A stretch of 13,794 nucleotides of DNA, taken from Lachnospiraceae bacterium UBA6403. Its GTDB lineage: Bacteria; Bacillota; Clostridia; Lachnospirales; Lachnospiraceae. The stretch's first letter is position 1. Each line of letters starts with the position of its first letter. Of this stretch, positions 33 through 13,794 are shown piece after piece. A program made the position numbers and the translations under genes. The notes beneath the pieces are model-generated. The model saw only the letters and a list, made by a program, of their open reading frames with translations. It searched no databases and had not been told where the DNA came from. The stretch is taken from contig DJPV01000015.1 of assembly GCA_002437435.1 (NCBI GenBank), positions 1-13,794 of the forward strand. Direction: 5' to 3'.

Positions 33-434
33 TTATGCAGGAAATGCGACTCCTGCTGTCAGGATAATATTTGGATATGGTGTAAATTCACCTGTCCGGA
101 TTGCAAATTTCACGTTCTTTGACATTTCCTTTAATGCCACATGAGAGATCATGGATTCTTCTGCCTCCGAAAGACTCTCTCTTATATATGTAAGGAGCTC
201 CTGATTCTTCTCAACGATCTCCTCTGCAAGTACATAGCTTTCAATCTGTGTCTCATCAAGGACTGCATCCATTACCTGCTTAAATGTCGGTACACCTCCA
301 CAAAGTGCCAGATCTACGATCTCTACTCCCTTTGGAATCGGCATTCCGCCATCACCGATCATGAATGTATCCTTATGTCCAAGTCCTGCGATCAGACCCG
401 CAAGCTGTGCATTAATGATACCTCTTTTTTTCAT
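33..434 (-). CDS. rbsD: D-ribose pyranase / FucU-type sugar mutarotase (RbsD)
   Basis: A 133-residue cytosolic protein of the RbsD/FucU family, which interconverts ring forms and anomers of sugars such as ribose or fucose after uptake. The whole length matches RbsD (usual size 130-140). The expected functional residues are visible: His20 (LGHKD, the catalytic His of the family), Asp28 (GDGG), His98, Arg113, and Tyr120/Asn122 in TPYPNIIL. The ATG follows GGAGG at 9 bases. It is the last complete gene of the operon, 122 bases after the permease gene and preceded by a stem-loop. A pyranase implies that the imported sugar can form a pyranose ring, which is a clue to the substrate. The family assignment is firm; that ribose is the true substrate is inferred. 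Confidence 0.9.
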   Translation of the reverse strand: MKKRGIINAQLAGLIAGLGHKDTFMIGDGGMPIPKGVEIVDLALCGGVPTFKQVMDAVLDETQIESYVLAEEIVEKNQELLTYIRESLSEAEESMISHVALKEMSKNVKFAIRTGEFTPYPNIILTAGVAFPA

Positions 435-485
435 ATTATCTGTCCTCCATACCTGTCTGACATATGTTTATCTGTTTTTAAGATC

Positions 486-514
486 GTAGACATGAAGCAG
501 TTCTCCATGTCCAC
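486..514 (-). other. Intercistronic mRNA hairpin between permease gene and rbsD
   Basis: In the minus-strand transcript, 12-base arms at 503-514 and 486-497 can pair completely, with two G-U wobbles, around the 5-base loop at 498-502. The bases after the stem contain UAAAAACAG and no U-run, so it does not look like an intrinsic terminator. It lies in the 122-base gap between the permease stop and the rbsD ribosome binding site. It may act as an RNA processing or stability element, or as a mild attenuator of rbsD. A smaller hairpin (ATACC, TTT, GGTAT; 545-557) overlaps the permease stop codon. Confidence 0.5.
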
Positions 515-556
515 GTTTCTATATATTCTTTCTGTCTTTACCTGATACCTTTGGTA

Positions 557-1597
557 TTATTTGCTCTCATTTCTTGCCTGTAATGCCATCTTTGCCTGCA
601 TCTTTCTCTGGAACTGGTCGATGATAACCGCTACGATGATAACCAGACCTTTGATAACCATCTGCCAGAATTCAGATACTCCACACATTACCATACCATC
701 ATTGATAACACCGATTACGAAAGCACCAACGATTGTTCCGCCGATCGTACCAACACCACCAGCCATGGATGTTCCACCAAGTACGGCTGCTGCGATCGCA
801 TTCATTTCCCATGACTCACCAGTTGCCGGATGGGAAGCTGCAAGCTGTGAAGAAGCGATGATACCAACGATTGCTGCACAGATACCTGAGATCATGTATA
901 CAAGGATCTTTACTTTGTTTACCTTTACACCGGAAAGCTTAGCAGCTTTCTCGTTACCACCGATTGCAAATACATGCCATCCAAATGATGTTCTCTTTAA
1001 CAGGATTGCAAATATAACTGCAAGGATTACTAAGAGCCAGAGGCCTACAGGAATTCCAAGGATGCTTGAACGGAAGAAGCTCCATCCTTCATTTCCAAGG
1101 CCTTCATAACCATTTAAGTCTGAGTATGTAGCACCCTTTGAGATCAGGTTTGCAAAACCTCTTGCAATGTACATCATACCAAGAGTCGCTATGAATGGGG
1201 CTACATTGAATTTCGTTATGATCAGACCGTTTATTACACCAACTAACGCTCCAAGGATGATCGCTACAAGAACAACCAATGGAATGCTTAAGTAAATTGT
1301 CTTACCGCCGATCGTGATACCGTTCTGGATCATGTATCCAGCTAACATACCTGAGATACCAACTACCGCACCAACGGAAAGGTCGATACCGCCTGTGATG
1401 ATGACATATGTCATACCAATTGCAAGAATACCATATAAGGCAACGTGCTTACCTATTAAAAGTGCTGTGTTCAGACTTAAGAAGTTATCTGCAGCAAAGC
1501 TAAAAAATACTAAAAGAATAATTAACACGATGAATGTACGACCTTTTAAGAGCGTCATCATCAGAGTATTATTTGATTTTTTCTTTTCATTACTCAT
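557..1597 (-). CDS. rbsC: Sugar ABC transporter permease (RbsC family, BPD_transp_2)
   Basis: A 346-residue membrane permease of the ribose/xylose/galactose ABC importer class. It forms the channel for the sugar delivered by the lipoprotein binding protein. Many hydrophobic segments run from about residue 20 to 328. Family signatures are visible: GGIDLSVG (69-76), the FNVAPFIATLGMMYIARG stretch (130-147), GGNEKAAKLSGV (213-224), and AAAVLGGTSMAGGVGTIGG (269-287). The frame is open 33 codons further upstream, but that would overlap the ATPase gene. The ATG at 1597 follows AAAGGAG at normal spacing and gives a normal N-terminus, so it was chosen. The gene starts 28 bases after the ATPase stop. 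Family certain; substrate unproven. Confidence 0.93.
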   Translation of the reverse strand: MSNEKKKSNNTLMMTLLKGRTFIVLIILLVFFSFAADNFLSLNTALLIGKHVALYGILAIGMTYVIITGGIDLSVGAVVGISGMLAGYMIQNGITIGGKTIYLSIPLVVLVAIILGALVGVINGLIITKFNVAPFIATLGMMYIARGFANLISKGATYSDLNGYEGLGNEGWSFFRSSILGIPVGLWLLVILAVIFAILLKRTSFGWHVFAIGGNEKAAKLSGVKVNKVKILVYMISGICAAIVGIIASSQLAASHPATGESWEMNAIAAAVLGGTSMAGGVGTIGGTIVGAFVIGVINDGMVMCGVSEFWQMVIKGLVIIVAVIIDQFQRKMQAKMALQARNESK

Positions 1598-1625
1598 TTT
1601 CTCAATCTCCTTTACATGTAAATCT

Positions 1626-3167
1626 CTAAGCCTCTCCTGTGTGATGTCCCTTGTAAGATGCCAGAACCAGTGACTCCTCTTTGATCTCGTCACCAACGAA
1701 TTCTCCTGTTACCTTACCATTTGAAAGAACAACTACACGGTCAGCAATTGAAATAATCTCCTTCAGCTCTGAAGATATAACGATAATCGATAGCCCTTCA
1801 TCTGCGTACTTATTAATAATATCAAATACTTCTGTCTTTGCTCCGATGTCGATACCACGGCTTGGCTCATCAAGAAGCAGGATCTTCGGATTCGTCAGAA
1901 TACCTTTTCCGATAACGATCTTCTGCTGATTACCACCGGATAATGACAGGATCGGAAGTCTCTTATCTGCAACCTTGATATGGATGTCCTTGATCTCCTT
2001 CTCCACCATTTCATTCTCTTTCTTGAAATTGATGAAGCCCATCTTTGCATAAGATGCAAGAGCGGATAAGGAGCAGTTTCTGCCGATATCCATGGACTGT
2101 ACCAGACCTTCTCTCTGTCTGTCCTCAGGTACAAGTGCGAAGCCTTTCTCGATCTGTTCGGATATGGATCGGATGTTCATCTTCTCACCTTCCAGTGAGA
2201 TATCACCGGTATGCTCCGGACGAAGTCCCATGATGGATTCGAAGATCTCTGTTCTTCCGGCTCCCATCAGGCCGTAGATTCCAAGGATTTCTCCTTTTTT
2301 CAATTCAAAATTTACATGATCCAACAGATAGCCACCGCCTGACTTTGGAAGGCACAGATCCTTAACCTCAAGAACGGATTCTCTCTTTGCCCAGTCCACA
2401 TTACGGTCACGCTTTGGATATGATTTTCCTTCACCTGTCATCTGCTTTACGATCCAAGGTACATCAATATCCTTTACATCTGCATCTGCTACATATTTTC
2501 CATCTCGAAGAATGGTTACATGGTCACCGATCTGCATGATCTCTTCCAGTCTGTGTGAGATATATACGATCGAGATACCCTGTGCAGTCAGTTCCCGCAT
2601 GATCTTGAACAGTACCTGTACTTCCTGTTCAGAAAGGGAGGATGTAGGCTCATCCATGATCAGAACCTTCAGATCATCTTCTACAAGATTTCTTGCGATC
2701 TCGATCATCTGCTGCTGTCCAACACGGAGATCTCCAACCAGTGTATCTACCGGGATTGGATGCTCCAGTCTCTCCAGAACCTTCTTTGACTGTTCTCTAT
2801 GATATTCATTGTCAAGCTTTCCTGCCTTATGCTTCTCTCTTGACATAAATATATTCTGATAAACCGGAAGATTTGGAAACAGGTTCAATTCCTGATGGAT
2901 AATCCCGATACCATGCTTTCTTGCATCATTGGTATCTCTGAAGTATACTTCCTCATCTCCCATATATAATTTGCCTTCACTTGGCTGTTCGATACCTGCT
3001 ATCATCTTCATAAGAGTTGATTTGCCGGCACCGTTTTCGCCGATCAGTACATTTACCTTTCCTGTCAACAGGTCAAAATTAACATTGTCCAATGCTTTTG
3101 TACCAGGATAGATCTTACTGATTCCTTCTGCATGAAAGCAAACACCTTCTTTGCACATTCCTGCCAT
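1626..3167 (-). CDS. rbsA: Sugar ABC transporter ATP-binding protein, tandem ATPase domains (RbsA family)
   Basis: A 513-residue cytosolic ATPase with two ABC domains that drives the permease. Domain 1 has Walker A GENGAGKST (43-51), signature LRVGQQQ (147-153) and Walker B VLIMDEPT (168-175). Domain 2 has the degenerate P-loop GLMGAGRTE (299-307), with Arg in place of the usual Lys as is typical for RbsA/MglA/XylG proteins, signature LSGGNQQK (409-416) and Walker B ILLLDEPSRGID (429-440). An upstream GTG at 3179 is in frame, but the near-complete Shine-Dalgarno GGAGGTGA overlaps it. The ATG at 3167, 8 bases after that site, is therefore the start. The gap to the preceding lipoprotein gene is 23 bases. 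Confidence 0.94.
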   Translation of the reverse strand: MAGMCKEGVCFHAEGISKIYPGTKALDNVNFDLLTGKVNVLIGENGAGKSTLMKMIAGIEQPSEGKLYMGDEEVYFRDTNDARKHGIGIIHQELNLFPNLPVYQNIFMSREKHKAGKLDNEYHREQSKKVLERLEHPIPVDTLVGDLRVGQQQMIEIARNLVEDDLKVLIMDEPTSSLSEQEVQVLFKIMRELTAQGISIVYISHRLEEIMQIGDHVTILRDGKYVADADVKDIDVPWIVKQMTGEGKSYPKRDRNVDWAKRESVLEVKDLCLPKSGGGYLLDHVNFELKKGEILGIYGLMGAGRTEIFESIMGLRPEHTGDISLEGEKMNIRSISEQIEKGFALVPEDRQREGLVQSMDIGRNCSLSALASYAKMGFINFKKENEMVEKEIKDIHIKVADKRLPILSLSGGNQQKIVIGKGILTNPKILLLDEPSRGIDIGAKTEVFDIINKYADEGLSIIVISSELKEIISIADRVVVLSNGKVTGEFVGDEIKEESLVLASYKGHHTGEA

Positions 3168-3175
3168 ATTGCTGT

Positions 3176-3183
3176 TCACCTCC
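3176..3183 (-). promoter_or_regulatory. Strong ribosome binding site that fixes the ATPase start
   Basis: GGAGGTGA on the minus strand matches eight consecutive bases of the anti-Shine-Dalgarno complement. It lies 8 bases before ATG 3167. Because it overlaps the GTG at 3177-3179, that codon cannot be the start, and the protein begins MAGMCKEG. Confidence 0.8.
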
Positions 3184-3190
3184 GGAATTA

Positions 3191-3826
3191 TTACTGTACT
3201 GTTAATACGACTGGAGTAATAAGCAGTTCATCGTTTCCGTCAACTGTAAATGTTCCAACGAAATCTACTGTCTTTCCCTGAATAGATGTCAGGTCTACAC
3301 CGCCTATAACCTCTGAATCGATCTTTTCATGTAGGGTCTTGGATACATCGCCCCATTCCTCCTGATTTGTATAGTCACCATAATTGATGATCGTCAATGA
3401 ATCTCTTGTGGATGATCCCTTATAGATCGATCCAACCTGCATCTTGATCACCTCAGTTCCATCATATCCGTTTAACTTTACTGTGATATATCCGGCTTTC
3501 TTTGAAGTCTCAACTTCTTCTACAACGCCGGTACCCTTTACAGGATAACTAATGGAACCGCTTGTTCCCATGGAGTATTTTCCATATTTATCTACTAATG
3601 ATGAAAGGTCACCATTTGCTTCTGTTAAGAAGGTTGGAAGATCAACTGCACGGTCTGAAATATCCTGTACTGCTTCTTCCCACATTTCTTCTACATTATC
3701 GGAAGCATTGAACTCTACCTTTCCTGTATACTGTCCTTCTGTTCCCTTATCTATAATCTTTACACACCCTGTTGACAGCATTGCAACAGAAAGTGCAGCC
3801 ATAACAACTAATATTCTTTTTCTCAT
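3191..3826 (-). CDS. DUF2291 family lipoprotein of the sugar-uptake operon
   Basis: A 211-residue predicted lipoprotein. The signal peptide has a basic start (MRKR), a hydrophobic core and a lipobox ending at Cys21 (LSTGC, with Ser at -3, slightly atypical), followed by VKIID. The rest is a small soluble beta-rich domain with no visible catalytic motif. Its length, the CVKIID start and its position between a sugar-binding protein and an RbsA-type ATPase fit DUF2291, a family of unknown function known mainly from sugar ABC operons. A role as an accessory to uptake on the outer face of the membrane is inferred only from context. The ATG follows AAGGAG at 6 bases. An 88-base gap holding a strong hairpin separates it from the upstream binding-protein gene. 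Confidence 0.75.
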   Translation of the reverse strand: MRKRILVVMAALSVAMLSTGCVKIIDKGTEGQYTGKVEFNASDNVEEMWEEAVQDISDRAVDLPTFLTEANGDLSSLVDKYGKYSMGTSGSISYPVKGTGVVEEVETSKKAGYITVKLNGYDGTEVIKMQVGSIYKGSSTRDSLTIINYGDYTNQEEWGDVSKTLHEKIDSEVIGGVDLTSIQGKTVDFVGTFTVDGNDELLITPVVLTVQ

Positions 3827-3850
3827 ACCTAGCTCCTTCTTTATATTTCA

Positions 3851-3885
3851 CGGGAGGATCAACCCGGTTTCGGATCATCCTCCCG
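3851..3885 (-). other. Strong intercistronic mRNA hairpin after the binding-protein gene
   Basis: Arms CGGGAGGAT (transcript side 3877-3885) and ATCCTCCCG (3851-3859) pair perfectly over nine mostly G-C pairs. The loop pairs further (CCG with CGG, plus A-U and G-U pairs), giving a stem of about 15 pairs with one bulge and an AAAC tip. The following bases (TGAAATATAAAG) are not a U-run, so this is probably not a full terminator. Hairpins in this position commonly protect the upstream binding-protein message and lower expression of downstream transporter genes. That role is inferred here. Confidence 0.7.
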
Positions 3886-3914
3886 GCATATATACTTGTA
3901 ACTACTGTAACAAA

Positions 3915-4934
3915 TTACTCTGTGTAAACAAATGTCTTAAGCTTATCTACGTTGTCTGCCGTGATTGCGATACAGTCTACTAACTGCTTCTCATCCAGAC
4001 CGGTTGTACCGTTCTTTAAGTAATCATCAGCCTGTGTTACTGCCATCTCAGCCATTAAAGCGAACTGCTGAAGTGCTGTACCTGTCATCTTACCAGCCTT
4101 GATCTGTGCTGCTGCCTCATCAGAACCATCTACACCGATGATCTTGATATCAGATCTGCCTGCTGCTGCACAAGCTTCTGCTGCACCAACTGCCATTGTA
4201 TCATTACCACAAACGATACCTGTGATGTCTGGATTTGACTGTAAGATAGACTCTGTCTTCTCATAACCTTCTGTCTGATCCCAGTTAGCTGTCTGTGTTG
4301 ATACACACTCTAATGTATCGTACTGATCGATTACTTCATGGAATGCTGATGAACGAACACCTGCGTTTGTATCTGACTCTTTACCAAGAAGCTCTGCGTA
4401 CTTTCCTTCTTCACCCATAGCTTCTACCCATTTCTCAGCGATTGCCTTTGCACCCTGATAGTTATTAGCTACGATCTGTGAGATTGCTACACCTGACTCG
4501 TTGATCTCACGGTCGATCAGGAATGTAGGGATACCAGCTGCTGCTGCCTTCTTAACTGCTTCAACAGTTGCATCTGCACCTGCATTGTCACAGATGATAG
4601 CTGCTGCCTTATCAGCGATCGCTGCATCGAATAACTCGCTCTGCTTTGTAGCATCATCATCATGCGAGCTTACCTTTACTTCATATCCAAGCTCCTTTGC
4701 CTTAGCTTCTGCTGTATCAGCCTCTGTCTTGAATGCCGGATTTGAATGGGATGGTGTGATAACGTAGATTACGTTTGATCCGCCTCCCTTTAATACTGCT
4801 CTTTCTGAACTTGCTTCTGATGACTTCTGTGTATTGTCTGTTGTGTCATTCTTCTTGTCTCCACATCCTACAAGTGATGCTGCTCCTAATACTGCGCACA
4901 TTGAAAATGCAATTACCTTCTTAAATTTTCTCAT
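3915..4934 (-). CDS. rbsB: Sugar ABC transporter substrate-binding lipoprotein (RbsB family)
   Basis: A 339-residue lipoprotein with signal peptide and lipobox LVGC (Cys24), a Ser/Thr/Asn-rich linker to about residue 50, then a two-lobed type 1 periplasmic-binding fold. Aligned by eye to E. coli RbsB, many ribose contacts are kept: Asn65 (N13), Phe68 (F16), Asp141-Arg142 (D89-R90), Arg194 (R141), Asn244 (N190), Asp269 (D215) and Gln289 (Q235). Two stacking positions differ: Ala67 for F15 and Trp218 for F164. This fits a monosaccharide of pentose or hexose size but not necessarily ribose. The ATG follows AGGAGG. The gene starts 22 bases after the kinase stop and is followed by a stable hairpin, consistent with higher expression than the rest of the transporter. 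Confidence 0.9.
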   Translation of the reverse strand: MRKFKKVIAFSMCAVLGAASLVGCGDKKNDTTDNTQKSSEASSERAVLKGGGSNVIYVITPSHSNPAFKTEADTAEAKAKELGYEVKVSSHDDDATKQSELFDAAIADKAAAIICDNAGADATVEAVKKAAAAGIPTFLIDREINESGVAISQIVANNYQGAKAIAEKWVEAMGEEGKYAELLGKESDTNAGVRSSAFHEVIDQYDTLECVSTQTANWDQTEGYEKTESILQSNPDITGIVCGNDTMAVGAAEACAAAGRSDIKIIGVDGSDEAAAQIKAGKMTGTALQQFALMAEMAVTQADDYLKNGTTGLDEKQLVDCIAITADNVDKLKTFVYTE

Positions 4935-4956
4935 ATTGTTTTTCCTCCTAATACAA

Positions 4957-6438
4957 TTAACCTTTTAGTACACTCTGTACTGCTTTTTTCCATCCTGTAA
5001 GTTTTCTCTGCCTGATGTCTTCCTCCATCTTCGGCTGATACTGACTGCGTTTCATTCTCTGAAATACCGTTTCATCCCATACCTTCATGGTAAGTCCTGC
5101 CATATATGCAGCTCCTATACCTGAGAGTTCCTCTGCTTCAGGGATCAGTACGGCAGCTTCCAGAATATCACTCTGAAACTGCATCAGATAGCTGTTCTTT
5201 GTCGGTCCGCCATCTACACGAAGCTCTGAAATCTTTACCCTGGAATCTTCTTCCATCGCTTTTACAATGTCTGATATCTGATAAGCGATACATTCCACTG
5301 CGGCACGGACAATCTCGTTTCTCGTTGTCGTTCTGTCCATTCCTGTAAATGATGCTCTGGCACTGCTGTCCCAATACGGTGCTCCCAGTCCGGTAAATGC
5401 CGGAACCAGATAGAGGTTATCCGTCTTCGCTGCTCTCTCTGCCAGTTCTCCGGTCTCTCCCGGATTTGTTATCAGTTTCAGATCATCCTTAAGCCATGTT
5501 ATAACGGCCCCTGTGTAATTCAGGTTTCCTTCTAACACATAGTCCACATGACCGTCTCTGCCCCACGCAAGACTTGTTACCACACCATGATCACTTAACA
5601 CAGGCTTATCTCCTACGTTCATCATGATCGACGAACCGGTTCCGTATGTTGTCTTGATCATGCCCGGTTCCAGACATCCCTGTCCGAACAATGCTGCATG
5701 AGAATCACCCATCACGCCGTGAATCATAACCAGGTGATTAAAATATCCTTCAAAAGTGGTTGTTCCAAATTCTGCATTGGAATCCACTACTTCCGGCAAG
5801 TTTGTTACTTCAATACCAAACAGCTTACAGATGTCTTCATCCCATTGTAACTTAAAAATATTAAAAAGCTGTGTTCTTGAAGCATTGGAAAAATCTGTCT
5901 TATAAGATTTTCCTTCTGTCAGTTTATATACCAGCCAGGAATCGATCGTTCCGTGGCATACCATATGTTCCTTTGCTTTTTCTGCTGCCCCCTCTGTATT
6001 TTCAAGAAGCCATGCGATCTTGGCAGCCGGGAAATATGGTGAAAGTCTGAGTCCCGTTTTAGACCGGATCTCATCTGCTGCCTCTTTGATCTCTGTTCTC
6101 TCACAGATCTCAGAAGCTCTTGCACACTGCCAGACAATCGCATTTGCAAGTGCCTTGCCTGTCTTTCGATCCCAGATTACAGATGTCTCTCTCTGGTTAC
6201 TGATTCCGATACCTGCAACTGCATCTTTGTCGATGCCTGCCTGATCGACCAGATTCTTTACAACCTGAACGGTATTTCTGTATATCTCTTCCGGATCATG
6301 GGATACCCAGCCCTTTTCATTTATGATCTGCTTATGCGGGAGATCGGATCTTTTTAATAAAGCTCCATTCTCATCAAACAGAAGTGCTTTGGTTCCCTGT
6401 GTGCTCTGATCTATGCTTATAATGTATCGATCTGCCAT
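4957..6438 (-). CDS. FGGY-family carbohydrate kinase, GlpK-like but with altered substrate pocket
   Basis: A 493-residue kinase with the two FGGY domains. Sequence and numbering follow glycerol kinase closely: SIDQSTQGTKA (8-18), NQRE (81-84), IVWQ (101-104), Tyr135, GDSHAALFGQG (244-254), TYGTG (264-268, with phosphate-loop Thr267), and VDGGPTKNSYLMQFQ (408-422). The catalytic base Asp245 and Arg83/Glu84/Trp103/Tyr135 are present. Glycerol contacts Gln246 and Phe270 of E. coli GlpK are both Ser here, and the helix after IVWQ reads CARAS instead of DRRT. This argues against glycerol and for a bulkier ketose or polyol. The start ATG directly abuts the TAG of the transketolase C gene, suggesting translational coupling. 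In this operon it probably phosphorylates the ketose made by the isomerase. Confidence 0.88.
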   Translation of the reverse strand: MADRYIISIDQSTQGTKALLFDENGALLKRSDLPHKQIINEKGWVSHDPEEIYRNTVQVVKNLVDQAGIDKDAVAGIGISNQRETSVIWDRKTGKALANAIVWQCARASEICERTEIKEAADEIRSKTGLRLSPYFPAAKIAWLLENTEGAAEKAKEHMVCHGTIDSWLVYKLTEGKSYKTDFSNASRTQLFNIFKLQWDEDICKLFGIEVTNLPEVVDSNAEFGTTTFEGYFNHLVMIHGVMGDSHAALFGQGCLEPGMIKTTYGTGSSIMMNVGDKPVLSDHGVVTSLAWGRDGHVDYVLEGNLNYTGAVITWLKDDLKLITNPGETGELAERAAKTDNLYLVPAFTGLGAPYWDSSARASFTGMDRTTTRNEIVRAAVECIAYQISDIVKAMEEDSRVKISELRVDGGPTKNSYLMQFQSDILEAAVLIPEAEELSGIGAAYMAGLTMKVWDETVFQRMKRSQYQPKMEEDIRQRKLTGWKKAVQSVLKG

Positions 6439-7368
6439 CTATAAAATCTCCATTGCCTTCTCTACAATGCCTTCTGCATTTAATTTATAGTAATCAAATA
6501 CCTGTTTTGACTTTCCTGTAATAACCGGAGCATCCGGAAGTGCCATGTTAACAACCTTCTTTGGACAATTTGCTCCAACTACCTGGCTGACCATAGAACC
6601 AAGTCCGCCAAATGGTGCATGTTCTTCGATCGTGATAACTGCTTTGGACTTAGATGCTGCTTTGATGATCGCTTCTGAATCCAGAGGCTTTACACAGTAC
6701 ATATCAAGAACCGTTGTCTTAACACCCTTTTCCTCAAGGATCTTTGCTGCATCTACAGCAGGCTTAACCATCTCGCCGCAGGCAACGATCGTCAGATCTT
6801 CTCCGTCTCCAATCATGGTCGCCTTATCCATTTCAAATGGACAGTTATCTTCAGAGTAGATATCTTCTACTGCATTTCTTCCAACTCTTACATATGCAGG
6901 CTTGTTATCCTTTAACAGTGCTTCGATCAGTTTTGTTGTCTGGAATCTGTCACTTGGAAGATACACTCTCATATTTGGAATTGCTGACATTGCTGCAATA
7001 TCCTGTGCGGAATGATGACTCATACCAAGCTCTCCGTAGCTGATACCACCGCTGATACCGATCAGTTTTACATTTGTGTTTGAGTAAGCTACATCAACCT
7101 TTGCCTGCTCATAGCTTCTTGTGGAAATGAAGCATGCCGGTGAAAATGCAAATGGCTTCTTGCCACACTTTGCAAGACCTGCGGATACGCTTACCAGATT
7201 CTGTTCTGCAATACCCATTTCAACAGTCTGTTCCGGATACTTCTCAAAAAAAGGAGTCATCGATGCGGAACCTCTTGAATCACTGCATAGTACAATGATA
7301 TCTTTATCTGTTTCTGCTTCCTTTAATAATACATCGCATATTGCTTTTCTGTTTGGTACATTATTCAT
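6439..7368 (-). CDS. Transketolase, C-terminal subunit
   Basis: A 309-residue subunit carrying the pyrimidine-binding (Pyr) and C-terminal domains of a split transketolase. It supplies the catalytic Glu of the cofactor site (GIAEQN, Glu55) and the aromatic/basic pocket ISTRSYEQAKVDVAY (81-95). SHHSAQD (117-123) matches the active-site His loop, and YVRVGRN (159-165) matches the phosphate-binding Arg segment. The C-terminal domain shows EEHAPFGGLGS (248-258). Its ATG overlaps the end of the N subunit gene by 8 bases, with an AAGGAGG site inside that gene, so the two are probably made in equal amounts. The enzyme would transfer a two-carbon unit from the ketose phosphate made in this pathway; the exact donor is unknown. 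Confidence 0.92.
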   Translation of the reverse strand: MNNVPNRKAICDVLLKEAETDKDIIVLCSDSRGSASMTPFFEKYPEQTVEMGIAEQNLVSVSAGLAKCGKKPFAFSPACFISTRSYEQAKVDVAYSNTNVKLIGISGGISYGELGMSHHSAQDIAAMSAIPNMRVYLPSDRFQTTKLIEALLKDNKPAYVRVGRNAVEDIYSEDNCPFEMDKATMIGDGEDLTIVACGEMVKPAVDAAKILEEKGVKTTVLDMYCVKPLDSEAIIKAASKSKAVITIEEHAPFGGLGSMVSQVVGANCPKKVVNMALPDAPVITGKSKQVFDYYKLNAEGIVEKAMEIL

Positions 7369-8203
7369 TTAAAGCAGCCTCCTTTCTTCTCTCAAGCTCT
7401 GCCATAATTGACTGATACTCTTCATCTGTTGGAACTTTGTGATGCCATGGAGCTTTGTTCTCCATTACATCACCGCCGCCAAAGCCCTTGATCGTATTTG
7501 CAATGATGCAGGTAGGCATTCCCTTTGTCTGTTTTGCCTGTTCAAATGCTGCATCCAACTCGTCCAGATCATTTCCATTTACCTGAATGACATTCCAGTT
7601 AAATGCTTTCACTCTTGCTTCCAGATTCTCATGGCTCATAACATCTTCGGTTGTACCTGAGATCTGAAGGTGGTTTCTGTCGATAACCGCACACAGGTTA
7701 TCTAATTTGTAATGACCGCCTGCCATGAATGCTTCCCATACAGAACCTTCTGCCAGTTCTCCATCACCCATTACGGTGTATACTCTGGATGGACGCTTAT
7801 CCATCTTTGCTGCTATCGCCATTCCGATACAAACCGGAAGTCCATGTCCGAGAGATCCTGAGTTCATCTCGATTCCCGGAAGCTTGTTGTTCGGATGTCC
7901 GATGAACATAGAACCAAATGTTGAAAATTCACGGATAACCTGTTCACGATCAATAAATCCTTTTTCTGCAAGTACTGCATAATAAGCTTCTACGGAATGT
8001 CCTTTACTCATTACAAAATAGTCTCTGTTTGGATCATCCATATTCTCGGTGCTGATATTCATCTGTCTCATATAGAGATCAACCAGAATGTCCATTACAC
8101 TGAAATCTCCACCTATATGACCTGCTTTTGCATTTCGAATCATTTCAACTACATCCTTACGAAGTTCAAATGATTTTGCTTTCAACGCTTTTAAATCACT
8201 CAT
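7361..8203 (-). CDS. Transketolase, N-terminal (thiamine-diphosphate-binding) subunit
   Basis: A 280-residue subunit holding the diphosphate-binding domain. The TPP motif starts GDGELAEGS (146-154) and ends at Asn177 in DRNHLQ. Active-site His motifs are AGH (27-29), SKGHS (66-70), GHP (102-104), SLGHGLP (117-123) and PWHHKVP (252-258). Together with the C subunit it equals a full transketolase. The ATG follows AAGGAG at 5 bases, 17 bases after the stop of the isomerase-like gene. Split transketolases are frequent in Clostridia and Thermotogae and often sit in sugar operons apart from the housekeeping copy, which suggests a dedicated substrate here. Confidence 0.92.
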   Translation of the reverse strand: MSDLKALKAKSFELRKDVVEMIRNAKAGHIGGDFSVMDILVDLYMRQMNISTENMDDPNRDYFVMSKGHSVEAYYAVLAEKGFIDREQVIREFSTFGSMFIGHPNNKLPGIEMNSGSLGHGLPVCIGMAIAAKMDKRPSRVYTVMGDGELAEGSVWEAFMAGGHYKLDNLCAVIDRNHLQISGTTEDVMSHENLEARVKAFNWNVIQVNGNDLDELDAAFEQAKQTKGMPTCIIANTIKGFGGGDVMENKAPWHHKVPTDEEYQSIMAELERRKEAALNE

Positions 8204-8220
8204 CTTGTCTCCTTTCCGGC

Positions 8221-9627
8221 TTAATTCTCGCCTCTAAGATATGCTTTAACCTCTTCTTCAATCGGATCATAAAGATCTGGCTTTATGCCGATGTATTTAC
8301 ATGCTTCATATAATACAGGAACTACATCCTTGTGGATTCCTACACAGTGATGGATGTATGGTCCCTCAACGATCTTTGCTTCCAGTCTCTTAATATTCTC
8401 AACTTCTACCCAAAGGTAAGTTCCCATTCCTTTTGGTCCGTCGATTCCTTTTGCATTTCCAAGTAAGAGTGAATACTCTCCATTATCTCCATCGAATCGA
8501 ACCAGTGATACATCACCATGCTTTGCTTCTGCTGTGATACTTCCCGGATGGTTAAATGCAAGTGGGTAGGTAAGCTTTGCTTTTTCCTTTGCAATTGAGA
8601 TCGGCCATGGTCCACAATGCTGAAGCAGCTCACCATTTGGATTGTCAGGATGACGGATCGTCCAGTCTGCGAAGAAGCTTCTTGTCTCTCCCATGCCTGC
8701 TGCCTCAACCATCAGTGAGGTGATCGCTCCGTGGATATCAGTCTCACATACAACCGGGATGCCTTCATCATTTAACAGTGCGTTTGCTGCACATGGCATA
8801 ATTCCGATCTCACTCTGTAACTGATTCCAGCACTGGATCGCGATTGCCTTACATCCATATTTGTTTAACAGATTCTTCATTGCGATCTTTAACGCTGCTA
8901 CATTCTCAAGCTCGTTGTCCTTGATGCAGATCTCCATGTTGTCTCTGCAATACTGAACAACATCCTTTACTCCTGCTTCATCCTCTGCCTTTACCTTCTT
9001 CATCTCATCGGTAAGCTCCGGCATTGGGATTGGTGTCAACTGAATGTTGAACTTCTCAAGCAATTCTCCTTCATTGCACATTGTGCTCCAGAACTCATAT
9101 GGTCTGGTTGAGATCTGAAGGATTCTGATATTCTTAAATGTCTTTACTACATTACATACTGCAAGAAAATCACGGATACCTCTTTCAAATACCGGATCGT
9201 TCAGTCTGCAGTTTGTCGTATATGTAAATGGGATTTCAAATCTGCGGAGAACCTTTCCTGTTGCAAACAGTCCACACTGTGTATCACGAAGTCTTGTTCC
9301 GTCCGGCTCCGGTCTTTCATCTAACGGTCCCCATAACAGAACCGGTACATTTAAGTCCTTTGCAAGTCTGGCACATTCAAACTCTGTACCGAAGTTACAA
9401 TGTGGAAGGAACAGTCCGTCGATCTTCTCTGCTTTGAACTTCTCTGCGATCTTAATTCTGTCCTCATCGTTATAAAGAAGACCTTCTGAATTAATATCAG
9501 TGATATCTACAAAATCAATTCCCAGCTCTGTAAGTCTCTCTGCTGTCAGTCCTCTGTACTTTACAGCATCCGGTGCTGAGAAAATACTTCTTCGTGTCGG
9601 TGCATAACCAATCTTAATCTTATCCAT
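8221..9627 (-). CDS. L-fucose/L-arabinose isomerase-like protein
   Basis: A 468-residue protein of the FucI/AraA-like fold (COG2407-type): Rossmann-like N-terminal domains, then a C-terminal barrel. Visible landmarks are RPYEFW (175-180), IAIQCWNQLQSE (262-273), PVVCETDIHGAITSLM (291-306), HCGPWP (337-342) and GPYIHHCVGIH (422-432). By analogy Glu295, Asp297 and a His of 426/427 are candidate metal ligands. Family members interconvert aldoses and ketoses using Mn2+, but many COG2407 proteins have no proven substrate. It is the first gene of the operon; the ATG at 9627 follows AAGGAGG at 7 bases. Placed before the kinase and transketolase, it is the likely aldose-to-ketose step. Fold confident; reaction inferred. 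Confidence 0.82.
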   Translation of the reverse strand: MDKIKIGYAPTRRSIFSAPDAVKYRGLTAERLTELGIDFVDITDINSEGLLYNDEDRIKIAEKFKAEKIDGLFLPHCNFGTEFECARLAKDLNVPVLLWGPLDERPEPDGTRLRDTQCGLFATGKVLRRFEIPFTYTTNCRLNDPVFERGIRDFLAVCNVVKTFKNIRILQISTRPYEFWSTMCNEGELLEKFNIQLTPIPMPELTDEMKKVKAEDEAGVKDVVQYCRDNMEICIKDNELENVAALKIAMKNLLNKYGCKAIAIQCWNQLQSEIGIMPCAANALLNDEGIPVVCETDIHGAITSLMVEAAGMGETRSFFADWTIRHPDNPNGELLQHCGPWPISIAKEKAKLTYPLAFNHPGSITAEAKHGDVSLVRFDGDNGEYSLLLGNAKGIDGPKGMGTYLWVEVENIKRLEAKIVEGPYIHHCVGIHKDVVPVLYEACKYIGIKPDLYDPIEEEVKAYLRGEN

Positions 9628-9697
9628 GTTATATCCTCCTTGTCCTTTTCTTATATTTCATTTTGTCGTTTTTTGTCTGTTCGTTTGTTATGAGCTG

Positions 9698-9726
9698 ATT
9701 ATATGCCTCCGAAAACTTAATTGATA
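9698..9726 (-). promoter_or_regulatory. Candidate promoter of the nine-gene operon
   Basis: On the minus strand, a perfect TATAAT (-10) lies at 9698-9703. Seventeen bases upstream is TATCAA (9721-9726), a poor -35 box that abuts and overlaps an AACTTAATT box (9714-9722). Transcription would start near 9691, giving a leader of about 64 bases. The weak -35 and the overlapping box are consistent with regulated expression. AT-richness makes chance -10 matches possible. Confidence 0.5.
9714..9722 (+). promoter_or_regulatory. AACTTAATT box 1
   Basis: A perfect AACTTAATT copy inside the operon promoter, between the -10 and the weak -35. With the inverted copy at 9732-9740 it also forms a second inverted repeat with a 9-base spacer. 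It is a candidate operator half-site for the adjacent LacI-type regulator. Confidence 0.45.
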
Positions 9727-9731
9727 GTACA

Positions 9732-9754
9732 AATTAAGTTTAATTAACTTAATT
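9732..9754. promoter_or_regulatory. Perfect palindromic operator candidate built from two AACTTAATT boxes
   Basis: Arms AATTAAGTT (9732-9740) and AACTTAATT (9746-9754) are exact inverted copies around the spacer TAATT. This is the longest perfect palindrome in the control region and lies between the two divergent promoters. It is the best candidate for dimer binding. Unlike most LacI-family operators it has no central CG. Confidence 0.5.
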
Positions 9755-9781
9755 ATTAGCTTAATTTATAACTTAATATTG
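9746..9781 (+). repeat. Three tandem 12-base repeats of the AACTTAATT box
   Basis: Units start at 9746 (AACTTAATT), 9758 (AGCTTAATT) and 9770 (AACTTAATA), exactly 12 bases apart, so the boxes fall on roughly the same face of the helix. The last unit runs into the -35 of the regulator promoter, so a protein bound here could control both promoters. The tract is AT-rich, but the preserved C and the even spacing argue against simple low complexity. Confidence 0.5.
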
Positions 9782-9806
9782 ATTTTAATTTCATTTCATG
9801 TATAAT
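9779..9806 (+). promoter_or_regulatory. Candidate promoter of the LacI-type regulator gene
   Basis: TTGATT (9779-9784), a 16-base spacer and a perfect TATAAT (9801-9806). Transcription would begin near 9813 and leave a leader of about 175 bases. A second TATAAT at 9868-9873 lacks a recognisable -35 at proper spacing. The -35 adjoins the box at 9770-9778, which would allow autoregulation. Confidence 0.5.
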
Positions 9807-9955
9807 AAAAACATACCAAAAAGAACCGCGTATTTTTTGAATTTTCGCTTAAATCTTGTGCAGTTTTTATAATAAAGTCAGATTGTACTATTACTTTCTT
9901 CTGAATACGAGGCTTAACGACTCTAATACAGCTTTTGATAATTCAATTAATCGGG

Positions 9956-9964
9956 AACTTAATT
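9956..9964 (+). promoter_or_regulatory. Isolated AACTTAATT box in the regulator leader
   Basis: A perfect copy 23 bases before the regulator start codon and 210 bases (about 20 helical turns) from the copy at 9746. AATTAA at 9945-9950 forms a short inverted repeat with its TTAATT half. It could be a secondary operator acting as a roadblock or loop partner. Confidence 0.4.
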
Positions 9965-9987
9965 CATATATGAAGGGAGTGTATTTC

Positions 9988-10998
9988 ATGTCAATTACAG
10001 CTAAAGAACTTGCTAAAATACTTAATCTGTCCGAAGCCGCCGTATCTATGGCACTGAATGATAAGCCGGGCGTAAGCACAGAGACAAGAAAGCGCGTATT
10101 GGAAACTGCACACAACTATTCTTATGATTTTACAAAGATCAAGAAGCCATCGAAATCATCAGGAGTGATCTATCTTCTTATATATAGAAAGCATGGTGCT
10201 GTTATCTCAAACAACTCCTTCTTTGATGTTCTGATCGAGAGTATCAATGAGAATTGCAGTGCAAATGGTTACCGCCTGTATTCACACCATGTTTATGAAT
10301 ATGCTGCTGAAAGTGTTACCAACCAATTAAACCATATCATCAAATCTGAATGTGATGGTGTTCTTTTACTTGGTACAGAAATGTACAAAGAGGACTTCTT
10401 CCCATTTGTATATCTGACGCTTCCGATCGTAGTAGTCGATACTTATTTCAACAGCGTAAAGATGGACTGTGTCAATATTAATAATGTACAGGGCGCACAG
10501 CAGGCAACTCATTTCCTGATCCAACGCCGCCAGAAGATTCCGGGCTACCTGCACTCTTCTTACAGTATCCATAACTTTGAAGAACGTGCCGATGGATATT
10601 ATCAGGCACTCCGTATGGCAGGCTTCGCTGCATCTAAGGCTATCGTACATCAGCTTCCACCTTATATGGACGGCGCACACGCAGAGATGCTTGCTATATT
10701 AGATAATAATGAACCGATTGCTGATTCTTATTTTGCCGATAATGATCTGATTGCCGCCGGAGCTATGAAAGCTTTTAAAGAACGCGGTTACCGTATTCCG
10801 GAAGATGTCGCCATCGTGGGATTTGATAATGTACCGATGTGTACTTATCTGGAACCAAATCTGACAACCATAAACGTTCCGGTTAAATATATGGGAAAAA
10901 TGGCAGTAGAACGACTGATTTCTGTTATTAACAGCAAGCAGTACATGCCGATCAAAATCGAAGTTAACACTAATCTTATAAAGAGACGAAGTGTATAA
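9988..10998 (+). CDS. LacI-family transcriptional regulator, likely controller of the divergent sugar operon
   Basis: A 336-residue regulator. Residues 2-47 form the LacI helix-turn-helix (ITAKELAKILNLSEAAVSMAL, then NDKPGVSTETRKRVLETA). Residues from about 58 form the sugar-binding core, with FADND (249-253), VGFDN (277-281) and EPNLTTINVP (289-298), all typical of the family. The hinge between them (YDFTKIKKPSKSSG) lacks the usual PNxxARSL pattern. The frame is open 44 codons upstream, but AAGGGAG 8 bases before ATG 9988 and the normal MSITAKELAK start decide the N-terminus. It is divergent from the sugar operon with shared box-like repeats, so local control with the imported sugar or a derivative as inducer is likely. 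Whether it represses or activates is not visible. Confidence 0.9.
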   Translation: MSITAKELAKILNLSEAAVSMALNDKPGVSTETRKRVLETAHNYSYDFTKIKKPSKSSGVIYLLIYRKHGAVISNNSFFDVLIESINENCSANGYRLYSHHVYEYAAESVTNQLNHIIKSECDGVLLLGTEMYKEDFFPFVYLTLPIVVVDTYFNSVKMDCVNINNVQGAQQATHFLIQRRQKIPGYLHSSYSIHNFEERADGYYQALRMAGFAASKAIVHQLPPYMDGAHAEMLAILDNNEPIADSYFADNDLIAAGAMKAFKERGYRIPEDVAIVGFDNVPMCTYLEPNLTTINVPVKYMGKMAVERLISVINSKQYMPIKIEVNTNLIKRRSV

Positions 10999-11335: not shown

Positions 11336-12427
11336 CTAATCTTCTGATCTGTTTGATACATTCTTTCTTGTGATCTTTAACAGCGACAGGATCGTCTGGC
11401 CGACGACTTTTCGGCTGGTTTCGTCCATCTTCTTGATCAAGGTCAGGATTCTGCCGATATCCTTATACCAGTTATTTTGCAGATCATCCGTGGTCTTCGC
11501 ATCACATTCATCCAACAGATCGAACAGGGCATTTACAAACTGTCTGCGCTGGTCATAATCCATATGGTCGATCCATTCTTTTAATGAAGCATTTAATACC
11601 CGGCATTCATCGGTGATTCCATCCTCATGAATGAGCGACGGCCCAAGCACCTCCCAGCTATAGACATCATGCTGCATGAAGCCCTCCTGCATACTGCGGA
11701 TCACGACATATTCCTCTCTGTGTTCAAGTAACATTCCCACTACGGAATTCTGTGGTATGTATGTAATCATCCGTGAAAGCATCCGGTTATAACCGGCAAG
11801 TTCCAGCACATTGGGTTCAAATCCCGGCCCATCCATGCTGTATACCTTTAAGATACGATCCTGCAACGTATGTTCACAGGTTGCCGCCGCATAGATCGCA
11901 AGATTGCCACCTTTGGAATGTCCGCACAGCAGGAAGGTTCCTGATATCTGTTCTGCTGCCTGCCGCAGATACTCGACTGCTGTCTGCTGGGACGGAACCG
12001 GTGAAAGAAATGCCATATTACAGTCCTCCCGCCATCCGACAAAGGTCTTATCGGTTCCACGATATACCACACAGCTTACATCATCAAACAGTTTTACCGT
12101 AACTGCTGAAAACTGCTTCTGTATTTCTTCATCCAACTGACTCACATAACCACATAAGAGCAGATCACCAAATCTTCTGCTTGCACCCATTGCGGCAAGC
12201 AGGTTCAGATCATCCTCATAGATTACCTGTGTCCTGCGTTCTTCATCCCCTAAGAACTGCTCTGCCGCCTCTGCTACCGTGACCGTATGCCCAAAATCAT
12301 CCGGCACGATTCCATCAAATGGTATATAGGAAAATCTCGAAAGTACAACTGCATCCACCTCATTAAAAGCCGATGCCTCAAATGGCAGATCTCCCCGCCA
12401 TTCCAGATAGTCTAATATATTTGCCAT
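11336..12427 (-). CDS. DUF2974 (Mbeg1-like) alpha/beta hydrolase
   Basis: A 363-residue protein matching the DUF2974/Mbeg1-like family of lipase-like hydrolases common in Firmicutes. The lipase-type segment VYRGTDKTFVGWRED (121-135) precedes the nucleophile motif GHSKGGN (169-175, Ser171). Asp199 in SMDGPGF and His253 in MQHDVYSW are plausible acid and base of the triad. The N-terminus starts MANILDYLEWRGDLPF, typical of the family, and there is no signal peptide, so it is cytosolic. An in-frame GTG at 12433 lies directly against the GGGGG site; ATG 12427 is better spaced and was chosen. It starts 19 bases after the thioesterase stop and is probably co-transcribed. The natural substrate is unknown; lipid or acyl ester hydrolysis is inferred from the fold. 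Confidence 0.82.
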   Translation of the reverse strand: MANILDYLEWRGDLPFEASAFNEVDAVVLSRFSYIPFDGIVPDDFGHTVTVAEAAEQFLGDEERRTQVIYEDDLNLLAAMGASRRFGDLLLCGYVSQLDEEIQKQFSAVTVKLFDDVSCVVYRGTDKTFVGWREDCNMAFLSPVPSQQTAVEYLRQAAEQISGTFLLCGHSKGGNLAIYAAATCEHTLQDRILKVYSMDGPGFEPNVLELAGYNRMLSRMITYIPQNSVVGMLLEHREEYVVIRSMQEGFMQHDVYSWEVLGPSLIHEDGITDECRVLNASLKEWIDHMDYDQRRQFVNALFDLLDECDAKTTDDLQNNWYKDIGRILTLIKKMDETSRKVVGQTILSLLKITRKNVSNRSED

Positions 12428-12446
12428 ATTCACACCCCCGGTTCAT

Positions 12447-12923
12447 CTAAAAACCTTCTTTGCGTCTCTGTCCTCTGAGCTCTCTCCTTTTCTCTCCTGC
12501 CAGCCATTCTGCCCGTTCACTTTCATTCTCAAGTTCAAGTCCCGAGACCGGTCTTGGTCTGTCATTTTCATTGACAGCCACCAGAGTCAGATATGCCCGG
12601 TTGATCGATCGCCGGATTCCTCTGTGATCCTCAATATAGGTATCCACCCGTACCTCCATCGATGTGTGACCGACATAAGTGATACGTCCTACTAATACGA
12701 TCAGATCCTTCAGATAAGCTCCACGCATGAATTTCAGGTTATCAACCGAAGCTGTGATCACATCACCATTGGAATGACGAATCCCAACAAGACCTGCAAC
12801 TTCATCGATCCATGCCATTAACTGTCCGCCAAATAATCGTCCGGCACCATTTAAATGCTCCGGTCGTACCTGATAGACCTGCTCTACCATTGAATCACTG
12901 ACTTTTTTCGTATTACGCTCCAT
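12447..12923 (-). CDS. Hotdog-fold acyl-CoA thioesterase (YciA/YkhA-like)
   Basis: A 158-residue cytosolic single-hotdog enzyme expected to hydrolyse acyl-CoA to free acid and CoA. The family signature HLNGAGRLFGGQLMAWIDE (23-41) contains Asn25 and the catalytic Asp40. TASVDNLKF (57-65) and VGHTSMEVRVDTYIE (84-98) complete the fold. The tail after about residue 130 is charged (Glu/Arg-rich) and poorly conserved. The frame allows a start at 12977, 18 residues earlier, but that start has no good ribosome binding site. ATG 12923 follows AAAGGGA and gives the usual length. The gene has its own candidate promoter upstream. The acyl chain preference cannot be read from the sequence. Confidence 0.85.
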   Translation of the reverse strand: MERNTKKVSDSMVEQVYQVRPEHLNGAGRLFGGQLMAWIDEVAGLVGIRHSNGDVITASVDNLKFMRGAYLKDLIVLVGRITYVGHTSMEVRVDTYIEDHRGIRRSINRAYLTLVAVNENDRPRPVSGLELENESERAEWLAGEKRRELRGQRRKEGF

Positions 12924-13075
12924 ATACACCGTTCCCTTTCTGTATATTTTCATCCTGTTTATCGTTTGAGTATTCATCCGTTACTATTCCTGTTCCGCTC
13001 ATTTTACCATAACAGACGCAAATACACAATCAGCAGCCGGTCTGTCGGATGATACTATTTATTCTGCCTATCCTG
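12924..13075 (-). promoter_or_regulatory. Intergenic region with a candidate promoter for the thioesterase-hydrolase pair
   Basis: On the minus strand, TTGTGT (13024-13029), a 17-base spacer and TAAAAT (13001-13006) form a promoter-like pair, with TGG directly before the -10 (extended -10). Transcription would start near 12994. No convincing terminator for the upstream membrane-protein gene was found in these 152 bases, so read-through from it is possible. Confidence 0.45.
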
Positions 13076-13794
13076 CTATCTTCTTTCATCCGTTTTGTTT
13101 CGCAACTCGTTTTTCCTGTTACATTTGTCCATACATAAACAAAGCATAAAACATATAAATCCTGACATTGTTATAATAATTCCCGGTATAAACATAGGAT
13201 ATACGAAAGTAATTTCCGTATGTTTCTCATGAACAACTAAAAGATTCATCTGCTCGGAAATCTGCTGATCGGATGTAAATATATCCTGTGCTGCGATCGT
13301 TGTATTTAGTCCTGTCTCCTGATCAAAATCCGCGTCAACATCAATCGACAGTCCATCTTCTTTATAAGATATTGTGATTGGAACAAGTTCTCTGTCCGGG
13401 AGCTGTTCATTTGAAATTCCAAGCACATCATTTAAGATATCAACCAATGCAGCATCCTTCCGATTGACAGCTTCATACATCAGATTCAGTCCTAGGAAAT
13501 ATACATTTGGCAGATCATTCTTTGTCCCTAAAAACGTCAGCTTCTGATCGCCCATCTGAAAAGTTCCGATATCCGTATCCGTTCCGGTTATATAAGCTGT
13601 ACTGAAATCACTATCCTCCACTGCAAAGTCTTCACTTCTGATTTCCATATTCTGATAAGAAAGTACCGGATAACGCTCATCAAAATGAATCTGCTGCGCA
13701 AATACGCCAAGGAAAATTTTCTGCTTGTTGTTTTTATTCGTCGGAACATGGGTACTGTCGATCACAACTCTTGTGCCTGCTGCCGCCACATCCG
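13076..13794 (-). CDS. C-terminal part of an unrecognised membrane-anchored protein (cut by the right edge)
   Basis: The frame is open to the window edge and the first codons read through without a credible start (the GTG at 13789 has no ribosome binding site), so the gene is partial; about 239 codons are visible. Most of the visible part looks extracytoplasmic and soluble, rich in Asp, Asn, Thr and beta-prone stretches. It is followed by one hydrophobic segment near the end (FVYPMFIPGIIITMSGF and on) and a short basic tail (CNRKNELRNKTDERR). This topology, a large outer domain anchored by a C-terminal helix, suggests a cell-surface or envelope protein. I do not recognise the family, and no enzyme motif is visible. 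TAG stop at 13076. Confidence 0.6.
   Translation of the reverse strand, partial: DVAAAGTRVVIDSTHVPTNKNNKQKIFLGVFAQQIHFDERYPVLSYQNMEIRSEDFAVEDSDFSTAYITGTDTDIGTFQMGDQKLTFLGTKNDLPNVYFLGLNLMYEAVNRKDAALVDILNDVLGISNEQLPDRELVPITISYKEDGLSIDVDADFDQETGLNTTIAAQDIFTSDQQISEQMNLLVVHEKHTEITFVYPMFIPGIIITMSGFICFMLCLCMDKCNRKNELRNKTDERR

Follow-up and report, generated by a model that had tools for sequence, protein, structure and literature searches.

Which sugar does a nine-gene operon of the Lachnospiraceae bacterium UBA6403 take up and degrade? The window, that is, the whole stretch of 13,794 nucleotides analyzed here (assembly GCA_002437435.1, contig DJPV01000015.1), carries at 33–9627 on the minus strand nine co-directional genes that are spaced by −8 to +122 bp and mostly preceded by Shine-Dalgarno-like sequences. 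In transcription order, they encode an isomerase, the N-half and the C-half of a split transketolase, an FGGY kinase, a sugar-binding lipoprotein, a DUF2291 lipoprotein, the ATPase and the permease of an ATP-binding cassette (ABC) importer, and RbsD. The single, tightly spaced operon reported in a preliminary description of this DNA is indeed present. That description saw in it the best candidate for an undescribed pathway, yet the kinase, the transketolases, and the binding protein lead to a known one. Judged from sequence, the operon very probably serves the uptake of D-apiose and its degradation along the non-oxidative route. This assignment is supported by computation, namely by gene content, by the predicted isomerase fold, by the orthology that links the kinase and the two halves of the transketolase with their counterparts in enterobacterial apiose clusters, and by the class of the binding protein.

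The reaction scheme of the non-oxidative D-apiose route is reportedly that of Carter and co-workers from 2018. Applied to the operon, the binding protein and the ABC importer with its DUF2291 lipoprotein would bring in free apiose and probably D-ribose as well, while RbsD would speed the interchange of ring forms. The isomerase would convert D-apiose to D-apulose, which the AplK-type kinase would phosphorylate to D-apulose 4-phosphate. Finally, the split transketolase AptAB would move a two-carbon unit to glyceraldehyde 3-phosphate, yielding xylulose 5-phosphate and dihydroxyacetone phosphate.

The gene grouping is far from chance. A scan of genome contigs with an isomerase alignment gave 585 confirmed loci, of which we retained the best 80 (identifiers with the prefix L), all of at least 75% identity. 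The genome neighborhood comparison that had been proposed at the outset bears out the association, as isomerase, N-half, C-half, and kinase occur together in 69 of the 80 loci. In seven of the remaining 11 (L011, L020, L031, L034, L058, L067, and L086) the missing genes coincide with a contig end, while L017, L033, L045, and L065 are without one or more core genes despite longer contigs. Among the best 80 of 585, the named locus closest to the window across all operon genes is L008 from an uncultured Merdimonas (Lachnospiraceae), with identities to the window of 88% for the isomerase, 83% for the N-half, 84% for the C-half, and 73% for the kinase. By the isomerase taken singly, Blautia luti (L007) reaches 89% and two further proteins 99%.

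The first main line of evidence comes from the kinase (4957–6438), which by sequence is an orthologue of the apulose kinase AplK and hence a predicted apulose kinase within the glycerol-kinase family. In the kinase tree, it groups with the four enterobacterial apiose-cluster kinases (AplK) in one clade that is supported by 98/99 and separate from the glycerol-kinase side. This tree, like an unrooted tree of the transketolases, comprises 23 of the 80 core loci together with L002 and L003; rows below 85% query coverage were dropped from trees and counts (60–75% in later transketolase trees), among them the kinase rows L134 and L145. Two positions with a role at the glycerol site, numbered 246 and 270 in both the window kinase and E. 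coli GlpK, separate the groups. Serine occupies both in 26/26 operon kinases and in 4/4 enterobacterial AplK proteins, as against Gln/Phe in 19/19 kinases on the glycerol-kinase side; these 19 are the generic kinases left over outside the AplK clade, counted as a group rather than annotated one by one. L143, which stands beside the AplK clade but has Gln/Phe, and the distant FGGY kinases L146–L149 were left out of both counts. The same Ser246/Ser270 pair is found in the kinases of Listeria, L153, L154, and L193. A glycerol kinase of the GlpK type was considered, as the NCBIfam model PRK00047 scores above its cut-off (601.1 versus 498) and TIGR01311 just below (589.9 versus 590.35). It was rejected, since the protein lies outside the GlpK clade and is without Gln246 and Phe270.

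The second line of evidence is provided by the transketolase. A split enzyme alone says little, because transketolase matches occur in 60/60 genomes of the class and many of them are split. The relationship of the N-half (7361–8203; PF00456) and the C-half (6439–7368; PF02779 and PF02780), whose genes overlap by 8 bp, is more specific, and from their positions in the trees the two halves are AptA and AptB orthologues. In trees rooted with full-length enzymes as outgroup and including 12 operon rows, the window among them, the operon N-halves and enterobacterial AptA form one clade (100/100, with a long-branch warning) of 12 operon rows, four enterobacterial rows, and two others. Likewise, the operon C-halves form one clade with AptB (100/98, the bootstrap being rough). 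Both clades stand apart from the generic split transketolases, and the unrooted tree with more rows agrees. A generic Firmicute split transketolase, which plain identity would make the nearest kin of the N-half, was discarded after the rooted trees reversed this order. The preliminary description had argued from the dedicated transketolase to a branched pentose, with D-apiose among its named candidates, and the AptAB clades agree with this argument.

On the import side, the periplasmic sugar-binding lipoprotein of the RbsB type (3915–4934) belongs, by sequence comparison, to the class found in apiose operons rather than to the ribose-binding proteins. Its nearest solved relatives in the PDB are 5ibq and 4ry0 (E about 1e-106), of which 4ry0 is RHE_PF00037 of Rhizobium etli with 59% identity; we take 5ibq to be the apiose complex of RHE_PF00037 and 4ry0 to be its ribose complex. 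In the fold comparisons, 4ry0 served in place of 5ibq, which is not among the 50 rows that each of them listed. In the two plasmid records opened of 647 matching, relatives with 58.8% and 61.4% identity each lie inside an operon with OiaX, the 3-oxo-isoapionate-4-phosphate decarboxylase of the oxidative apiose route. Moreover, position 116 is Asp in 32/32 apiose-type rows (window, relatives, and R. etli) versus Asn in two ribose-binding proteins; the rows were picked by similarity (those under 70% coverage and under 150 bits being dropped), so that Asp116 is a mark of the class and not proof of the ligand. The ATPase (1626–3179) is of the RbsA/XylG type and matches NCBIfam sugar ABC ATPase models under their equivalog cut-offs, and the permease (557–1597; PF02653) is of the RbsC type. 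The mechanical open reading frame of the permease extends to a TTG at 1696, and we chose the ATG at 1597 from the sequence as the likelier start. Between binding protein and ATPase lies the gene of the predicted DUF2291 lipoprotein (3191–3826; PF10054, E 6.8e-49), a conserved partner of this importer class that takes the same position in the apiose operons L001, L004, L005, L006, L117, and L118.

The last gene, rbsD (33–434; Pfam RbsD_FucU), encodes a member of the D-ribose pyranase family, which changes ring forms and anomers, and raises the question of ribose as a substrate. It scores 153.4 bits on NCBIfam NF008761 with a cut-off of 93, and its translation contains H20, D28, H98, Y120, and N122, to which we ascribe the catalytic role. 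Apiose forms only furanose rings, and the preliminary description had held RbsD against apiose, concluding that neither apiose nor ribose fits perfectly. The distribution of the gene offers an explanation. An ABC importer (two or more parts) is present in 23 of the 80 loci; RbsD occurs in 20 of these 23 versus two of the 57 others, one of which, L011, has a permease at the contig edge. A PfkB-type, ribokinase-like gene accompanies 13/23 ABC loci and 0/57 others, and of two such genes tested on the NCBIfam ribokinase model, that of L024 scores above the cut-off of 299.65 (357.5) and that of L048 below (222.4). RbsD does not contradict apiose, because its presence follows that of the ABC importer, in many loci together with a ribokinase-like gene, and this co-occurrence suggests that the importer probably also serves ribose. 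Action of RbsD on ribose is presumed from its family; action on apiose is a guess. There is no ribokinase in the window, which ends 32 bp past rbsD. In L022, whose importer is close to that of the window (ATPase 86%, permease 80%), a PfkB gene directly follows rbsD, and the operon may thus continue with such a gene outside the window.

The same features would fit an operon for ribose and D-arabinose of the Thermotoga type, in which ribose is imported, D-arabinose is processed through D-ribulose by the isomerase and the kinase, and the transketolase does no more than increase the flux through the pentose-phosphate pathway. Besides the pyranase family of RbsD and the ribokinase-like genes, a precedent speaks for it: According to passages of PMC3750489, the T. 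maritima “ribose” operon (RbsR regulon) comprises an ABC importer, a ribokinase, a transketolase, and two predicted D-arabinose enzymes, and is induced by ribose and xylose. We consider this explanation unlikely. Kinase and both transketolase halves fall into the apiose clades, loci without ABC importer, RbsD, or ribokinase retain the same isomerase–transketolase–kinase core, and the binding protein has Asp116. The T. maritima ribose-binding protein, in contrast, has Asn at this position and is 40% identical to that of the window; the likeness between the two operons is drawn from the gene content given in PMC3750489. Among the control genomes, T. maritima is itself positive for the Apiosidase domain, and its “ribose” operon with transketolase might be an apiose operon.

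Within the apiose assignment, it is the isomerase (8221–9627) that departs from the described enzymes. It has no match in Pfam, a phmmer search against the PDB found nothing, and in NCBIfam there are sub-threshold matches only, the best being the sulfoquinovose isomerase SftI (NF048012, 108.7 bits). Fold comparison of the model indicates that it shares the predicted fold of the L-arabinose/L-fucose isomerase superfamily. Sulfoglycolysis with a split transketolase exists, and the SftI match might point to a sulfosugar route of this kind, which we regard as extremely improbable. The score falls far short of the cut-off of 700, and the operon has an AplK-clade sugar kinase and a ribose/apiose-type importer. 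When the ten operon and regulator proteins were scanned for known families, none was identified as a sulfosugar exporter, reductase, or sulfoquinovosidase. For the apiose operon that we favor, the isomerase presumably acts on D-apiose and represents a subfamily other than that of ApsI. In the isomerase tree (12 of the 80 loci, L002, L003, L153, and the window), the window type forms its own clade apart from the ApsI type (99/96); the enterobacterial plasmid isomerases are taken to be ApsI from their gene position. The preliminary description had named strong orthology of isomerase and kinase to characterized pathway enzymes as contrary to its proposal; such orthology was found for the kinase but not for the isomerase.

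Other combinations of these genes were seen as well. In L197 and L198, an ApsI-type isomerase is followed within one stretch by two different split transketolase pairs, of which only the second lies inside the AptAB clade. At L193:6528–9445, a kinase with Ser246/Ser270 adjoins an ApsI-type isomerase, and no transketolase pair was recognized in the 18 kb read.

Further indications for apiose come from genes near related loci. The Listeria operon L003 ends with an Apiosidase-domain protein (PF13204, E 3.6e-93), in L153 a DUF5060-type protein of the apiosidase class is found between the transketolase C-half and the kinase, and in L154 a related protein adjoins the isomerase. By tblastn, 12/80 loci have an apiosidase-like gene, or 14/80 when L062 and L072, found with Pfam only, are included. 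Chance association was tested in 50 of these genomes, with their L-arabinose isomerase loci as controls. PF13204 lies within 10 kb of the isomerase in 12/50 genomes versus 0/33 control loci, with 0.26 expected from its density, but the list of 50 genomes is not random and included 11 of the 12 loci known beforehand to be positive, so that 12/80 is the fairer figure. Set against the 0/33 control loci, 12/80 gives a Fisher p of 0.017, with two control loci having an apiosidase domain about 16 kb off, just beyond the largest distance counted. The domain is broad: 28/50 genomes have it above the cut-off, many of the matches being weak. Where the importer is absent, the relatives seem to import apiosides and release apiose in the cytoplasm, or to rely on other transporters. 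The L010 and L013 genomes also encode, outside the isomerase operon at L159:7674–10361 and L160:7895–11128, a two-gene pair of phosphotransferase system (PTS) and Apiosidase-domain proteins like that of Listeria (44–45% and 42–44% identity).

Several observations weigh against apiose as the substrate, the limits on the apiosidase counts among them. No apiosidase-like gene was found by tblastn near any of the 23 ABC-type loci, the type to which the window belongs. The isomerase is not an ApsI orthologue and has 27% identity to the ApsI-type enzyme of the Klebsiella cluster. Isomerases 45–48% identical to it, at L191:8101–9546 and L192:8490–9929, have no AptAB or AplK-type kinase recognized nearby, and such loci without the transketolase pair suggest that the wider isomerase family has other substrates. 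In 2/80 loci, L017 and L033, the isomerase stands on a long contig with neither transketolase half. Further, the N-half is up to 49% identical to some generic Firmicute split transketolases versus 41% to E. coli AptA, and only the trees, with the long-branch warning and rough bootstrap given above, separate it from these. Finally, RbsD scores above the cut-off for D-ribose pyranase, and 4ry0, the closest binding protein of known structure, is titled a ribose transporter protein, its listed title being cut before the ligand.

The separate isomerase clade and the missing apiosidase genes of the ABC-type loci would also suit a branched or unusual pentose or tetrose other than D-apiose, degraded by enzymes derived from the apiose set. 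This is even less probable than the ribose/D-arabinose explanation. The trees of kinase and transketolase intermix ABC-type loci with the others, which makes one chemistry likely, and the binding protein is 59–61% identical to those of the two OiaX operons.

How does the operon relate to known apiose systems? According to passages of PMC13001218, Carter et al. 2018 is cited for apiose degradation by Bacteroides and Clostridia, and aplK, aptA, and aptB are named in E. coli SE15. In the same passages, E. coli and E. fergusonii strains with an aplK–aptA–aptB cluster use D-apiose as their only carbon source for growth, whereas K-12 does not, SE15 itself being outside the growth test; the Escherichia clusters are without the Pectobacterium isomerase gene apsI, which is presumed replaced (PMC13001218). 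With the non-oxidative D-apiose pathway (MetaCyc PWY-8089), the window shares the apiose-class ABC importer with its DUF2291 partner, the AplK kinase, and the split AptAB; it differs in an isomerase of another clade and in the added RbsD. Identities to the E. coli SE15 cluster (ECSF_RS02670–02715) are 53.7% for the permease, 48.2% for the ATPase, 41.3% for the binding protein, 38.0% for the kinase, 41.0% for AptA, 34.8% for AptB, and 20.9% for DUF2291; unlike the window, this cluster has two short-chain dehydrogenase/reductase (SDR) oxidoreductases and no isomerase. The enterobacterial plasmid clusters of Klebsiella (L004), Sodalis (L117), and Rahnella (L118) contain the same functional gene set, including a gene of the L-fucose/L-arabinose isomerase family, but their isomerases are 26–28% identical to that of the window (tblastn) and belong to another clade. 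Moreover, the enterobacterial clusters have a “sugar-binding transcriptional regulator” in place of LacI and another gene order, while the window has one continuous operon.

The Listeria operon L003 shares with the window the isomerase (70.9%), both transketolase halves, a kinase with the AplK signature, and a divergent LacI gene, and has a beta-glucoside PTS and the Apiosidase-domain protein where the window has ABC importer and RbsD. It is presumably of the lmo1031–1036 type, as judged by gene order. In passages of PMC2996996, lmo1031–1036 share a single operon number and are listed as hypothetical, transketolase-like, PTS, and glycerol kinase-like genes. The stretch L003:5296–13086, with its genes for isomerase, split transketolase, “glycerol kinase”, PTS, and DUF4038, can be read as an apioside-utilization operon that has not been annotated as such.

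The operon unit includes a divergent LacI-family regulator gene, at 9976–10998 on the plus strand and thus outside 33–9627 (PF13377 and PF00532 above the cut-off, PF00356 just below). A divergent LacI gene likewise stands beside the isomerase in L007, L008, L010, L012, L042, and others. The AT-rich region in between (9628–9975) is the divergent promoter region and presumably holds the LacI operator; the operator search there returned weak AT-rich inverted repeats and nothing stronger, and the imperfect repeats at 9742–9766 and 9935–9974 are no evidence by themselves. At the other end, no minus-strand terminator-like site was called in the 32 bp between rbsD and the end of the window, so that the operon may extend beyond it. 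The minus-strand neighbors at 11336–13792 are ordinary, namely an Mbeg1-like protein, a 4HBT thioesterase, and an edge-cut membrane protein (PF10131).

The new element of the operon is the isomerase subfamily, together with the merging with ribose functions, neither of which is covered by described enzymes. We tentatively propose, at somewhat less than even odds, that it is a second family of D-apiose isomerases, recruited apart from ApsI within the superfamily and present in Bacillota and a few Spirochaetota, Chloroflexota, and Actinomycetota. ABC-type operons might have merged a ribose-type importer and RbsD with this enzyme into one regulated unit for the two pentoses, both able to form furanose rings; RbsD would then open the ring of apiofuranose as well.

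A literature search of titles and the starts of abstracts found no description of the operon in Lachnospiraceae or Listeria, and Carter et al. 2018 may cover Firmicute clusters. Papers listed for the T. maritima gene numbers were all unrelated. Public records label the genes as L-fucose/L-arabinose isomerase, transketolase, and glycerol kinase, and a reading as an apiose operon would correct this annotation in genomes of Lachnospiraceae, Selenomonadaceae, and Listeria. Plant cell walls contain apiose as part of rhamnogalacturonan II, as stated in a passage of PMC6302742. If the operon serves apiose, it would tie this sugar to defined gut bacteria, and it would provide a direct test case for the independent recruitment of isomerases into one pathway.

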